Part shown: positions 34,480 through 42,789 of the stretch, piece by piece
How positions within the stretch are numbered: position 1 is the stretch's first letter
Layout of the letters: each line of letters starts with the position of its first letter
Source of the DNA: Oceanimonas smirnovii ATCC BAA-899
GTDB lineage: Bacteria; Pseudomonadota; Gammaproteobacteria; Enterobacterales; Aeromonadaceae
NCBI RefSeq assembly: GCF_000381965.1
Contig: NZ_KB908459.1
Coordinates: 1 to 64,000, forward strand
Length of the DNA: 64,000 bases
Direction: 5' to 3'
Made by a program: the position numbers and the translations under genes
The notes under the pieces: model-generated
What the model saw: only the letters and a program-made list of their open reading frames with translations
What the model was told of the DNA's origin: nothing
The model's database searches: none

Positions 34480-35139
34480 ATGATCTCCGCTCAACAGTAC
34501 CGCTCGGCGCTGATACGCCTGTCTTTGTTCCATATTGCCGTGATTGCTGCCAGTAACTATCTGGTGCAGCTGCCCTTTACCCTGTTTGGTTTTCATACCA
34601 CCTGGGGCGCACTCAGCTTTCCTTTTATTTACCTGGCCACGGATCTGACGGTGCGGATTTTTGGTGCTGATCTGGCCCGGCGTATTATTTTTGCGGTCAT
34701 GCTGCCGGCGCTGGTCAGCTCTTATGTGCTGTCGGTGCTGTTTTTCGAGGCCAGCTATCAGGGCCTGGGATCGCTGACAGAATTCAATCTGTTTGTGGCC
34801 CGTATCGCCCTGGCCAGCTTTATGGCCTATGTGCTGGGGCAGATTATGGATGTGTCGGTGTTTAACCGGTTGAGGCAAATCAAGGCCTGGTGGGTGGCCC
34901 CCACCTGCTCCACCATTTTCGGTAACCTGGTTGATACCCTGGCCTTTTTCAGCCTGGCATTCTGGCGCTCGCCGGATCCCTTTATGGCCGAGCACTGGGT
35001 AGAAATAGCCTGGGTGGACTACGGCTTCAAGCTGGTGTTCAGCCTGGGCCTGTTTGTGCCCGCCTATGGTCTGCTGCTGAAATACCTGAGCCGTCGCATT
35101 CTTGGCGACGACCAAGCGGCACTGCAAACCAGCCGTTAA
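34480..35139 (+). CDS. yhhQ: queuosine precursor transporter YhhQ (VUT family)
   Basis: This 219-residue inner-membrane protein has six hydrophobic segments and belongs to the COG1738 family. In E. coli YhhQ imports preQ0 and preQ1 for queuosine tRNA modification. Recognisable family features are SFPFIYLATDLTVRIFG and the Trp/Pro-rich STIFGNLVDTLAFF region. The riboswitch immediately upstream independently supports the substrate assignment. Confidence 0.93.
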   Translation: MISAQQYRSALIRLSLFHIAVIAASNYLVQLPFTLFGFHTTWGALSFPFIYLATDLTVRIFGADLARRIIFAVMLPALVSSYVLSVLFFEASYQGLGSLTEFNLFVARIALASFMAYVLGQIMDVSVFNRLRQIKAWWVAPTCSTIFGNLVDTLAFFSLAFWRSPDPFMAEHWVEIAWVDYGFKLVFSLGLFVPAYGLLLKYLSRRILGDDQAALQTSR

Positions 35140-35177
35140 TTACTGTGCAGAAGAATACAGGAATAGGGGTTGCAATA

Positions 35178-35196
35178 AGTAATGATAACGATTATC
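35178..35196 (+). promoter_or_regulatory. Fur box over the ryhB promoter
   Basis: AGTAATGATAACGATTATC matches the 19-bp Fur consensus at 15 positions. It lies inside a promoter with -35 TTGCAA (35170-35175), 17-bp spacer and -10 TATCGT (35193-35198). Iron-loaded Fur bound here would block transcription of the sRNA that begins near 35205. Confidence 0.85.
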
Positions 35197-35204
35197 GTTA
35201 ACTT

Positions 35205-35315
35205 GCTTTCCAAACAAGGCCCCATTCAGCAGTAGGGCGCGACCGTTTTTGAAGGCACGACATTGCTCACATTGCTTCCAGAGTATTTAGGCCGGCTTAT
35301 TGCCGGCCCTTTTTT
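35205..35315 (+). ncRNA. ryhB: RyhB iron-responsive small RNA
   Basis: Twenty-seven consecutive bases (35255-35281, beginning GCACGACATTGCTCACATTG) are identical to the E. coli RyhB core that pairs with target mRNAs. A terminator hairpin GGCCGGC/GCCGGCC with T6 follows at 35290-35315, and a Fur-controlled promoter precedes it. The predicted RNA is about 111 nt, slightly longer than the 90 nt of E. coli; the 5' 50 nt are not conserved. RyhB represses iron-using proteins when iron is scarce, with Hfq. The 5' end is approximate. Confidence 0.93.
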
Positions 35316-35403: not shown

Positions 35404-36051
35404 TTACATTTCTAAAAGGCGCTTCACCAGTTTGCCAATGCCGGTGTCGGCTTCGGTAATGTTTTTTGCCAGCATATAGGCGGGGGTGGAAATCACCTTG
35501 TGGCGTTCGTCTTCCACCATATCCGTCACGGCACAGCCGATATGCTCACCGCCCATGGCCATAAAGGCGTCTGCCACGGCAGCATCTGTGCCTGCCGTTC
35601 CTTTTACTCCGGCCGGATACACTTTTGGGATCAGCACAGGAGCAATGCAGCAGTAGCCGGCAGGCTTGCGGGCACGAGCAAAGGCTTTGCATACCGCCAG
35701 TACTTCCTTGTCGACCTCACATTCCGCCCCTTTAAAGGCAAAATTACACAGATTTTTAGCTACGCCAAAGCCACCGGGCAGCAGCAGAGCATCAAAGTCG
35801 TCGGCATTGAGTTCGCTCAGGGGCTGAATATCGCCCCGGGCGATGCGGGCGGCTTCGGTCAGCACATTGCGCTGTTCACTACTTTCTTCACCGGAAGCAT
35901 GGTTCAGCACATGATGCTGAGGCTTGTCGGGAGCAAAGCACTGATAGCGGGCACCATTGCGGGCCAGGTGCAGCAGGCACAGTACCGCCTCGTGAATTTC
36001 TGCGCCGTCATACACGCCGCAGCCGCTCAGAATTACGGCAACTTTTTTCAT
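35404..36051 (-). CDS. elbB: glyoxalase-type DJ-1/PfpI-family protein ElbB
   Basis: This 215-residue protein belongs to the class I glutamine amidotransferase-like/DJ-1 superfamily. It begins KKVAVILSGCGVYDGAEIHE and has the nucleophile-elbow segment KPAGYCCIAP. E. coli ElbB (217 residues) has weak glyoxalase activity and is named for a supposed isoprenoid link that is not firmly shown. It is transcribed away from polA. Confidence 0.92.
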   Translation of the reverse strand: MKKVAVILSGCGVYDGAEIHEAVLCLLHLARNGARYQCFAPDKPQHHVLNHASGEESSEQRNVLTEAARIARGDIQPLSELNADDFDALLLPGGFGVAKNLCNFAFKGAECEVDKEVLAVCKAFARARKPAGYCCIAPVLIPKVYPAGVKGTAGTDAAVADAFMAMGGEHIGCAVTDMVEDERHKVISTPAYMLAKNITEADTGIGKLVKRLLEM

Positions 36052-36354: not shown

Positions 36355-39087
36355 ATGGTTGCCATTCCTGCCAAACCCCTGATCCTGGTTGATGGATCCT
36401 CTTATCTTTATCGTGCCTATTTTGCTTCTCAGCAAGCGGATCTGCGCACCAGCGATGGCCGGCCCACCGGTGCCATTCGTGTGGTTACCAATATGCTGCG
36501 CAGCCTGCACAAGCAGTTTCCCGACTCAAGAGTAGCAGTGGTATTCGACGCCAAGGGCAAAACCTTTCGCGATGAGATTTATTCGGAATACAAGGCACAC
36601 CGGCCGTCCATGCCGGATGATCTGCGTGAGCAAATTAAGCCCATTCACGACATTATCCGTGCCATGGGATTGCCCCTGCTGATCGAAGAAGGAGTGGAAG
36701 CAGACGATGTGATTGGTACCCTGGCCCGGCAGGCCACCGAGCAGCAGCTGGATGTGGTGATCAGTACCGGTGACAAGGATATGGCCCAGCTGGTATCGAA
36801 TCATGTGCTGCTGATGGATACCATGAAGAACAGCTTTCTCGATCGGGACGGCGTGGTGGAAAAATTTGGTGTGCCGCCGGAGCTGATTATCGATCTGCTG
36901 GCGCTGGTAGGCGACAAGGTAGACAACATTCCCGGCATGCCCGGTGTGGGTGAGAAAACGGCACTGGCGCTGCTGCAGGGGCTGGGCTCCATCAACGACA
37001 TTGCCGCCAATACCGACAAAATTGCCGAGCTGGGCTTTCGCGGATCCAAGTCGTTTGCCGCCAAGTTCGTCGAGCACGAGCAGCAGGTACGGCTGTCTTA
37101 TACCCTGGCTACCATCAAGACTGATGTGGAGCTGGACGTGGGGCCGGCGGATCTGCAGCAAAGCGAGCCCGATACCGAGGCCTTGCGCGCTCTTTATCAA
37201 GAGTTTGAATTCCGTAATCTGCTGGCTGAGCTGGATCCCGCCACTCAGGAAGAAGCGCCAGTGGCGGCGGCCATGGAAACCGATTATCAGCTGGTGACCG
37301 AGCAGGCGCAGCTGAATGCGTGGATTAAAAAGCTGGAAGCCGCGCCTCTGTTTGCCTTTGATACCGAGACTACCAGTCTCAGCTACCGGGATGCCCGTGT
37401 GGTAGGGGTATCATTTGCAGTAGAAGCCGGACAGGCGGCCTATGTGCCTTTTGGTCACGATTATCTGGATGCACCCGAGCAGCTGAGCGAAGAAACCGTG
37501 CTCGGTGCGCTCAAGCCGTTACTGGAAGATGAGAGCCGCATCAAACTGGGTCAGAATCTGAAGTACGATATCAATGTGCTGAAAAATCACGGCATTCACA
37601 TGAAGGGCACGCTGCTCGATACCATGCTGGAGTCTTATGCTCTCAACTCGGTGCAGACCCGGCACGATATGGACAGCCTGGCGGCATTTTTCCTTAATCA
37701 CAGCACCACACCGTTTGAAGCCATTGCCGGCAAGGGAGCCAAGCAGCTGACCTTTAACCAGATCCCACTGGAGCAGGCCGGGCCCTATGCGGCGGAAGAT
37801 GCTGACATTACTCTGCGGCTGCACCATCATCTGGCGGAAAAACTGGCTGCCGAGCCGTCTCTTGAAAGCGTATTTAATGACATTGAAATGCCGCTGGTAC
37901 CCATTCTTGCCGGAATGGAATACACAGGCGTGCGCATCGACGGCAAGCTGCTGGCCATTCAGAGTGATGAAATTGCCAAACGGCTGAAAGAGCTGGAGCT
38001 GGAAGCCCACGAACTCGCCGGTGAGCCCTTTAATCTCAGCTCTCCCAAGCAGCTTGGCGAGATTCTGTTCACCAGGCTGGAACTGCCGGTGATCAAAAAA
38101 ACGCCCAAGGGTGCGCCTTCTACCGCCGAAGAAGTACTGCAGGAGCTGGCGCTGGATTACCCTTTGCCCAAATTACTGATGGAATACCGGGTACTTAGCA
38201 AGCTCAAGTCCACTTATACCGACAAGCTGCCCCAGATGATGAATGAGCACAGCGGCCGGGTGCATACCTCTTATCATCAGGCTAATACTGCCACCGGCCG
38301 GTTGTCGTCGTCAGATCCCAACCTGCAGAACATTCCCATCCGCACACCGGAAGGACGCCGCATTCGCCAGGCCTTTGTGGCTGAAAAGGGCTACAAGCTG
38401 GTAGCGGCAGACTACTCCCAGATAGAGCTGCGCATTATGGCGCATCTGTCTCAGGACAAGGGACTGCTCACGGCCTTTGCTGAAGGTCAGGATATTCACA
38501 GGGCCACCGCCGCCGAGGTGTTTGGTGTGGATCTTGAAGCGGTGACCAGCGAACAGCGCCGCCGGGCCAAAGCCATTAACTTTGGCCTGATCTACGGCAT
38601 GAGCGCTTTTGGTCTGGCCCGCCAGCTGGGCATTGGCCGGAATGAAGCCCAGGAATACATGAATATCTACTTTGAACGTTATCCGGGTGTGCTGCGCTAT
38701 ATGGAAGAAACCCGCGAGCAGGCCAGCGAGCTGGGCTATGTGTCCACCCTGTTTGGCCGTCGCCTGTATCTGCCGGAGATCAAATCCAAAAATGGTGCCC
38801 GGCGCAAGGGCGCTGAGCGCGCCGCTATCAACGCTCCCATGCAGGGCACGGCGGCCGATATCATTAAAAAAGCCATGGTGCTGGTAAACGACTGGATAAC
38901 ACAGTTACCCGAAGACGATGTGCGTATGCTGATGCAGGTTCACGATGAACTGGTATTTGAAATTCGCGAAGACAAGGCAGAAGATTACCGGCAGAAAATT
39001 TGCGAACTGATGCAGCAGGCGGCCAGTCTGGATGTGCCGCTGCTGGTGGAAGCCGGTGTGGGTGATAACTGGGATCAGGCTCACTAA
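36355..39087 (+). CDS. polA: DNA polymerase I
   Basis: This 910-residue enzyme repairs DNA and removes RNA primers. The 5'-3' exonuclease domain (1-320) starts [16 protein letters not shown]. The 3'-5' exonuclease domain keeps its metal ligands in [10 protein letters not shown] and [13 protein letters not shown]. The polymerase domain has motif [15 protein letters not shown], motif [21 protein letters not shown] and motif [11 protein letters not shown]. All three activities therefore look intact. An sRNA-like gene follows, as in E. coli. Confidence 0.97.
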
Positions 39088-39234: not shown

Positions 39235-39357
39235 GCCTGCAATCCACCTCTTCTTTTGTATACAACAAAAAATTTATGTTACTAAATTACAGTTGGTGTG
39301 TTTCAACTCTGCCGGCTGGCAATTAAACGGTGGGCTGGGTATGATTTCTGTCATTGG

Positions 39358-39438
39358 TCGGGGTGCCGAAAGGCCGAGATGGCAATTATTGCCGAACCCG
39401 TTGAACCTGATCCAGCTCATACTGGCGTAGGGAACCGA
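39358..39438 (+). promoter_or_regulatory. TPP (THI-box) riboswitch upstream of thiD
   Basis: P1 arms TCGG/CCGA enclose GGTGCC, GGCCGAGATGG and the highly conserved TTGAACCTGATCCAG and GGCGTAGGGAA elements of the thiamine pyrophosphate aptamer. The start of thiD lies 49 bases downstream. No strong terminator lies between, so control is probably at translation. The stretch 39235-39357 before it has no other recognisable feature. Confidence 0.95.
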
Positions 39439-39486
39439 TGGCTGTGGCCTTATGGTTTTCGCGCCCAGATAAAGGACCATAAGGAC

Positions 39487-40293: not shown

Positions 40294-40491
40294 ACACAGT
40301 GCAAATGTCCCGGCCCGCTTGCGTCCGGCCGGGGCGGCTTGTAGTATTCCTTGCGATGATAATCAATAACAACGAATTAACGCATTGATCGTTAATCGAA
40401 ATAAGTCACTGCTATAGTCTGCATTCTAAGTCTCTCCTTTCTATTTGCCGATCCTTACGCCCCTGAACGGGCCTGAAAAGGAGCCTTGCGT
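40294..40491. other. intergenic region between thiD and mrpA
   Basis: A GC-rich inverted repeat CCCGGCC/GGCCGGG (40309-40333) lacks a T-tail but may weakly terminate thiD. TATAGT at 40413-40418 could be a -10 for the mrp operon, but I find no fitting -35. A 13/19 Fur-like match at 40352-40370 is too weak to call. The mrpA ribosome site AAAGGAG is at 40477-40483. Confidence 0.5.
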
Positions 40492-42789
40492 ATGCTTGTT
40501 GCCGTTTTGGCAGGTTTTGTTCTCGCCGCCCTGGTGCCCATGTTGAGCTCCCGGCTGGGCCAGTATATTGGCTGGTTTCTGGCGGTATTACCCGCGAGTC
40601 TGTTTGTTTATTTTGCCGGTTTCTGGCCTCTCATTACCGCGGGTGAGACGCTTCAGTTTCACTATCAGTGGATTCCCAGTCTTGATATCGGCCTGAGTTT
40701 TCTGCTCGACGGCCTCAGCCTGATGTTTGCGCTGCTGATCACCGGTATTGGTACCTTTATTCTGATCTACGGCGGCCGCTATCTGGAGGGCAACAAGGAC
40801 AGGCACAAGCTGCTGATGTACCTGCTGGCCTTTATGAGCGCCATGCTGGGAGTCGTGCTCTGTAGCAATTTGATCGGGTTGTTTGTGTTCTGGGAGCTGA
40901 CCAGTATTACTTCCTATCTGCTGATTGGTTTTAACCATGAGCAGGAAAAGTCGCGCAAGGCGGCACTGCAGGGCTTGTTTGTCACTATGGGTGGCGGCCT
41001 GGCACTGATGACAGGCCTGATCATGCTGGGCTGGATGGCCGGCAGCTATGAGCTGACCGAGGTGCTGGCGCAGGGCCCTGCACTGCAACAGCATCCGCTG
41101 TTTTTGCCCATGATGATATTGATCCTGGCGGGCACCTTCACCAAGTCGGCGCAGTTCCCGTTTCACTTCTGGCTGCCCAATGCCATGGCCGCGCCCACGC
41201 CGGTCAGCGCCTATTTGCATTCCGCCACCATGGTTAAGGCGGGCGTGTTTCTGATGGCCCGGCTGCAGCCGGTCATGGCGGGCCATGATGCCTGGATGCT
41301 GACGCTGTCGGTGTTGGGGGCTGTTACCATGACGGTGGGTGCCCTCATGTCGGTATGCAGCACAGATCTGAAACGCATTCTGGCCTATTCCACCATTATG
41401 GCGCTGGGCACCCTGACCATGCTGATTGGCATCGGCACGCCGGTGGCGCTGAAAGCGGCCATGATTTTTCTGCTGGCTCATGCGTTGTACAAAGGTGCGC
41501 TCTTTATGGCTGCCGGTACCCTGGATCATGCCACCGGTACCAAGGATGTGCGCGAGCTGGGCGGGCTGGCCCGGCTGATGCCACAAACGGCCCTGTTTTT
41601 GTGGGTGGCGGCCTTGTCACTGGCGGGTATACCGCCGCTGTTTGGTTTTATTGCCAAAGAGCTGATGTTTGAGGCGGCCTTGGGTGCCCGCGCCCTGTCT
41701 GTGCTGCTGGTGGTGCTGGCATTGGTCACGGCTGTGGCTATTGTGGCTGCCAGTGCCCTGGTGGCCATCAAACCTTTCTTCGGCAAGCTGAAACCCACTC
41801 CAAAAACGCCTCACGAAGCTCCCCTTGCCATGCGTCTGGGCTTTAGTGCGCTGGCAGTCTTAAGTCTGGTGCTGGGGTTGTTGCCCGGTTTGGCTGAGCC
41901 GCTGCTGACGGCGGCGGTCACTGCCATCAGCGGGGCACCGGCGGGAAATCTGGATCTGGCGCTGTGGCACGGCATTAATCTGCCGCTGCTGTTCAGTGCT
42001 GCCGCGCTGGTGGCCGGTGCTTTGCTGTACCGTCGCTGGAGCCGTATTTATCAGCCGCTGGGCAAGGTGCTGTATCCACTGGCCTACGGTCCGGAACGGG
42101 GCTATGAGCATATGATGGACGGCCTGGTGCGGCTGGCCCGCTGGCAGACCCATGTCCTGCAGAACGGCTACATGACCAACTACATCATGACCATACTGCT
42201 GACTACCATAGGTCTGCTGATATATGCCTTCTGGGCGCATGACGCCTTTATCTACTCACTGTCGTTTGAAGGGGTTTATCTCTACGAAGTGGTGATCAGT
42301 CTGCTGATGATGGTGGCGGTCATTTATGTCTGCTCCACTCATCTGCGTCTGGGAGCCGTGGCCGCGGTAAGTGTGCTGGGCTTTTCCATGGCGCTGATTT
42401 ATGTGTTTTTCAGTGCGCCGGATCTGGCTATTACTCAGATATTGGTAGAAACCCTGACGGTCATTCTGCTGGTACTGGTGCTGTTCCGTCTGCCCGGTTT
42501 TCAGGATCTTTCCAGCACGCGCACCCGCTGGCGGGATGCGACTGTAGCCGGTGTATTTGGTGTGCTGGTGACCATGATGGTGTTAACCGTGAACCAGTCT
42601 TCGCTGGGCGAAGGCATCAGCAGTTACCTGATAGCTAACAGCTATGACATAGCCCATGGCCGCAACATAGTGAACGTGATCCTGGTGGACTACCGGGCGC
42701 TGGATACTCTTGGAGAAATTTTTGTGCTGGCGCTGGCAGCCATCGGTGTGAACGCCATGATCCGCTTTCGTTGGGAGGAACACCGCTGA
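40492..42789 (+). CDS. mrpA: Mrp Na+/H+ antiporter subunit A
   Basis: This 765-residue membrane protein is the large NuoL-like subunit of the Mrp cation/proton antiporter. It includes the proton-channel helices with [16 protein letters not shown] and the Lys/His-containing [20 protein letters not shown]. The C-terminal extension has the MbhD-like [22 protein letters not shown] and ends with the MrpA tail. ATG 40492 has AAAGGAG 8 bases upstream; a TTG two codons earlier overlaps that spacing. It starts a seven-gene coupled operon for Na+ export and pH homeostasis. Confidence 0.94.

Follow-up and report, generated by a model that had tools for sequence, protein, structure and literature searches.

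RyhB is a small RNA that is made under iron scarcity and shuts down iron-using proteins. The question raised by the interval between yhhQ and elbB in Oceanimonas is whether it encodes a functional, Fur-regulated ryhB and whether this RNA departs in structure or targets from its known relatives, both of which had been proposed from an inspection of the letters of the 64-kb stretch of DNA analysed here (the window, to which coordinates refer unless a contig is named). We put the probability at roughly 95 % that the interval is a functional ryhB, repressed by Fur, assisted by Hfq and with sodB as its best target; transcription, the binding of both proteins and repression are predicted here from sequence. 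The features of the locus are as follows.

34480–35139, plus strand: yhhQ, queuosine-precursor transporter (NCBIfam NF008406, 364 bits), the upstream neighbour, with conserved adjacency.
35170–35198, plus strand: predicted sigma-70-type promoter, with −35 TTGCAA (35170–35175), a 17-nt spacer and −10 TATCGT (35193–35198).
35178–35202, both registers: overlapping Fur boxes covering the promoter spacer and −10 element, conserved in relatives.
35205–35315, plus strand: predicted RyhB transcript of ~111 nt, its 5′ end predicted from an alignment with the ryhB promoter of E. coli.
35205–35256, plus strand: 5′ stem-loop directly before the core, closed by GCTTTC (35205–35210) with GAAGGC (35251–35256).
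35255–35281, plus strand: conserved 27-nt core GCACGACATTGCTCACATTGCTTCCAG, the target-pairing region, identical (27/27) to that of E. coli ryhB taken from NZ_CP025849.
35290–35315, plus strand: intrinsic terminator GGCCGGC-TTATT-GCCGGCC-CTTTTTT, with seven G-C pairs, a loop of 5 and a T-run.
35404–36051, minus strand: elbB (NCBIfam NF008747, 324 bits), the convergent downstream neighbour, with conserved adjacency.
36355–39087, plus strand: polA (NCBIfam NF004397, 1210.9 bits), the next gene in the conserved block.

The Rfam RyhB model RF00057 (curated cut-off 55 bits) matched 35251–35315 on the plus strand over its full length (model positions 1–67; 72.8 bits, E=1e-11), and this was the one match in the whole 3.28-Mb assembly, indicating a single ryhB copy. 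The original prediction had expected such a gene to be easily missed; this holds for protein-only annotation, but a standard Rfam scan detects it at once, and RyhB of Aeromonas salmonicida was annotated by such a scan as part of ncRNA annotation (PMC8780938). Small ORFs of 20–55 codons within the interval gave no sign of an encoded protein. The run of 27 bases shared with E. coli, the terminator with its GC hairpin and T-run and the adjoining yhhQ, whose identity NF008406 confirms, were all as first described. The yhhQ protein is 93–95 % identical to those of named Oceanimonas species.

The boundaries originally given to the gene (35170–35315) stand at their end only, as position 35170 is the start of the −35 element and the 5′ end of the RNA probably lies near 35205. 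The promoter is weak: its hexamers carry 8/12 consensus bases, and it was not called by a consensus promoter scan with a threshold of 9/12. The ryhB promoters of relatives have equal spacing and similar hexamers. The 15/19 Fur box that had been noted inside the promoter is present (AGTAATGATAACGATTATC, 35178–35196, plus orientation) and is overlapped by a better box in the reverse register (GATAACGATTATCGTTAAC, 16/19, 35184–35202). The next best sites in the 64-kb window reach 13/19, and none of 20 first-order Markov simulations of the window yielded a site of at least 15/19. The Fur box is far above chance, and binding by Fur would be expected. Fur-family genes are encoded in the genome, as is Hfq (canonical gene on contig C10). 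We regard the original assignment, a ryhB probably under Fur control, as upheld because the covariance-model match, the conserved promoter and Fur box, the synteny set out below and the fact that the genome encodes Fur and Hfq all point to it. Two further sequences touch on these regulators: a sequence that agrees with the 7-1-7 Fur motif at 13/15 positions (40352–40371), which could be chance, lies upstream of an antiporter-like large ORF (40486–42789), and an extra Hfq-like gene (C8:23616–23798) passes TIGR02383 and falls below the NF001602 cut-off.

With sufficient iron, Fe-Fur would occupy the operator over the −35/−10 spacer and −10 element and block transcription. Under iron scarcity, the ~111-nt RNA would be made; behind its 5′ stem-loop it would present the 27-nt core in accessible form, followed by a terminator whose U-tail appears suited to Hfq. 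Assisted by Hfq, the core would then pair with mRNAs of iron-using proteins, lowering their expression and sparing iron.

Folding of the predicted 111-nt RNA was more stable than that of shuffled sequences (z-score −2.66). In 20 Aeromonadaceae sequences, the closing pairs of the 5′ stem (GCUUUC/GAAGGC) are maintained with few exceptions, and 7 of the 20 carry a compensatory change of one terminator stem pair from G-C to A-U on both sides. Copies at the yhhQ locus within the genus have a core with 0–1 mismatch or one 9-nt insertion. In two same-genus ryhB copies, the core includes one additional GCTCACATT unit, which makes the pairing region 9 nt longer.

The first 50 nt had been singled out as differing from the enteric RNA, possibly with a new structure and new targets. 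Their sequence does differ, with no close match to the enteric RNA and a BLAST alignment to E. coli confined to the 3′ part, and it is this divergence that could favour a RyhB whose 5′ region pairs with a new, lineage-specific target set. The structure, however, is the usual 5′ stem-loop before the core. The region has a predicted fold, and among members of the genus the apex of its loop is free to differ both in length and in sequence (predicted start-to-core offset 54–92 nt), unlike a selected pairing region. Variation of this kind speaks against the first 50 nt being a new, conserved pairing region; we consider a new target set unlikely and do not retain that part of the original prediction.

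Could the element instead belong to yhhQ as its 3′ UTR, so that Fur box and terminator would act on read-through transcripts? The two lie on the same strand, and we found no terminator between the yhhQ stop codon (35139) and the Fur box. However, the Fur box coincides in part with a promoter-like element whose spacing is conserved, and across relatives the core lies anywhere from ~110 to ~1190 nt from yhhQ without being separated from its promoter and terminator, which makes this explanation very improbable. Equally hard to credit is a decayed or silent remnant from which no working RNA is made. The genus does contain decayed copies, such as the second one in genome G022, which has a mutated core and lacks an evident Fur box, but the only copy in the present genome has kept an intact, conserved core, Fur box and terminator.

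The favoured reading, an independent ryhB gene, agrees with its distribution. We detected ryhB in all 22 same-genus genomes searched, three of which carry a second copy, and in a genus matching Aeromonas by sequence; the genomes sampled from three other Aeromonadaceae genera (g2, g3 and g5) gave no RyhB match. The order yhhQ-ryhB-elbB-polA is found in Oceanimonas, Zobellella, Oceanisphaera, Photobacterium, Grimontia and Enterovibrio, and Aliivibrio has yhhQ-ryhB-polA. In Aeromonas, yhhQ-ryhB is present, with elbB and polA not adjoining within the flank examined. As the block is common to Aeromonadaceae and part of Vibrionaceae, position alone can help to locate a divergent ryhB; in Shewanella oneidensis, ryhB was located through synteny with Vibrio cholerae, downstream of SO4716 (orthologue of VC0106), and no covariance-model search was used (PMC2964681).

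Among the second copies, those of two same-genus genomes (G011:C5:60500–64200, at ~1750–1900 of this segment, minus strand; G012:C76) have a Fur box and terminator and precede what looks like a metal ABC transporter operon, in which the gene for a substrate-binding protein is followed by that for an ATPase. The degenerate core of G022 (C3:3000–6600, around position 1783 of this segment, plus strand) directly follows a gene of ~300 codons and precedes one resembling a TonB-dependent receptor. In a genome from another family of the order (G048, minus strand), a second, weaker RyhB-like core with its own Fur-box-like sequence lies ~180 nt downstream, which suggests tandem ryhB copies.

Compared with known systems, the RNA is a genuine, ordinary new member of the RyhB family, its expression and regulation being predicted. 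It shares with E. coli RyhB the core, a Fur box in the promoter, the order of 5′ stem-loop, core and terminator, and a sodB gene carrying AGCAAUGUC; it differs in length (~111 versus 90 nt), in the sequence of the 5′ stem and in location, as E. coli ryhB lies between yhhY and yhhX. Aeromonas RyhB belongs to the same family, has yhhQ as its neighbour and has a similar 5′ stem-loop and sodB site, but has a different terminator stem and another sequence at the apex. The RyhB RNAs of Aliivibrio, Photobacterium and Vibrio share the locus (yhhQ-ryhB-(elbB)-polA or beside polA), core and Fur box, but in their 3′ regions the core is not immediately followed by the same compact terminator; the V. cholerae RNA is 215 nt long (PMC2964681), and that of Aliivibrio salmonicida was 43.7-fold up in a fur mutant (PMC5511505). 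S. oneidensis RyhB, like that of A. salmonicida repressed by Fur and 20-fold up in a fur mutant (PMC2964681), likewise has the core and a 15/19 Fur box but is 168 nt long (PMC2964681). A literature search found no paper treating RyhB together with Oceanimonas, and the present gene adds a well-supported ryhB for a little-studied marine genus.

For targets, we searched the whole genome for exact 9-nt antisense matches to the core and obtained 53 (31 AGCAATGTC and 22 AGCAATGTG), two of which are ryhB itself. Inspection of the surroundings of 52 antisense 9-mers revealed one clear 5′ UTR match, with a ribosome-binding site and start codon, and this was sodB; the others were inside genes, without a nearby start or at doubtful internal starts. 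The sodB site, AGCAAUGUC, is antisense to core bases GACAUUGCU and lies ~49 nt before the start codon. The exact 9-nt site AGCAATGTC is present upstream of sodB in 20/22 same-genus genomes, and of the two exceptions, AGTAATGTC pairs through G-U while AACAATGTC retains seven contiguous pairs. In Aeromonas, the equivalent upstream place is mostly taken by CGCAATGTC; Vibrio-like genomes carry CTGGAAGCAA at this place, a sequence antisense to the core's 3′ end. The RyhB site is missing from three sod paralogues, which come from three same-genus genomes; their upstream sequence is AT-rich, and they are possibly sodA-type genes under direct metal control.

When pairing was corrected for accessibility, sodB ranked first among 77 gene starts, a background sampled from the window and other genome loci and partly picked by the seed search itself. 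Plain RNA duplex energy, which is too noisy to single sodB out, placed it only 18th of 77. On the accessibility-corrected measure, sdhC ranked 12th and acnB 57th of 78 (start sites assumed from sequence), and the start of an iscS-like gene in the isc locus had no prominence. Such rankings do not support the classic TCA targets (sdhC, acnB), at least as far as computed pairing goes, and the picture resembles that in S. oneidensis, where RyhB represses sodB and leaves sdhA and acnA unaffected (PMC2964681). sodB is most likely the best-supported target, through accessibility and conservation only, and would be repressed.

The sole point of modest interest is that the conserved sodB pairing site is upstream of the start codon and not at it: in same-genus genomes it begins 49–56 nt before the start, whereas the identical 9-mer of E. 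coli overlaps the start codon. We give about even odds to the proposal that RyhB represses sodB by pairing ~50 nt before the start codon, at a site followed by a small hairpin, in Oceanimonas, Oceanisphaera, Zobellella and probably Aeromonas. If true, repression would work through decay of the mRNA, or through interference at a point before the ribosome site, and not by direct occlusion, and the relocated yet conserved site would offer a natural comparison of two routes by which one small RNA acts on the same target.

Elsewhere in the window, positions 1–558 hold the end of an rRNA operon (23S-5S-tRNA-Thr(GGT)-5S), the second 5S having altered ends, and a TPP riboswitch (39349–39450, 76.4 bits) lies ahead of a thiD-like gene.
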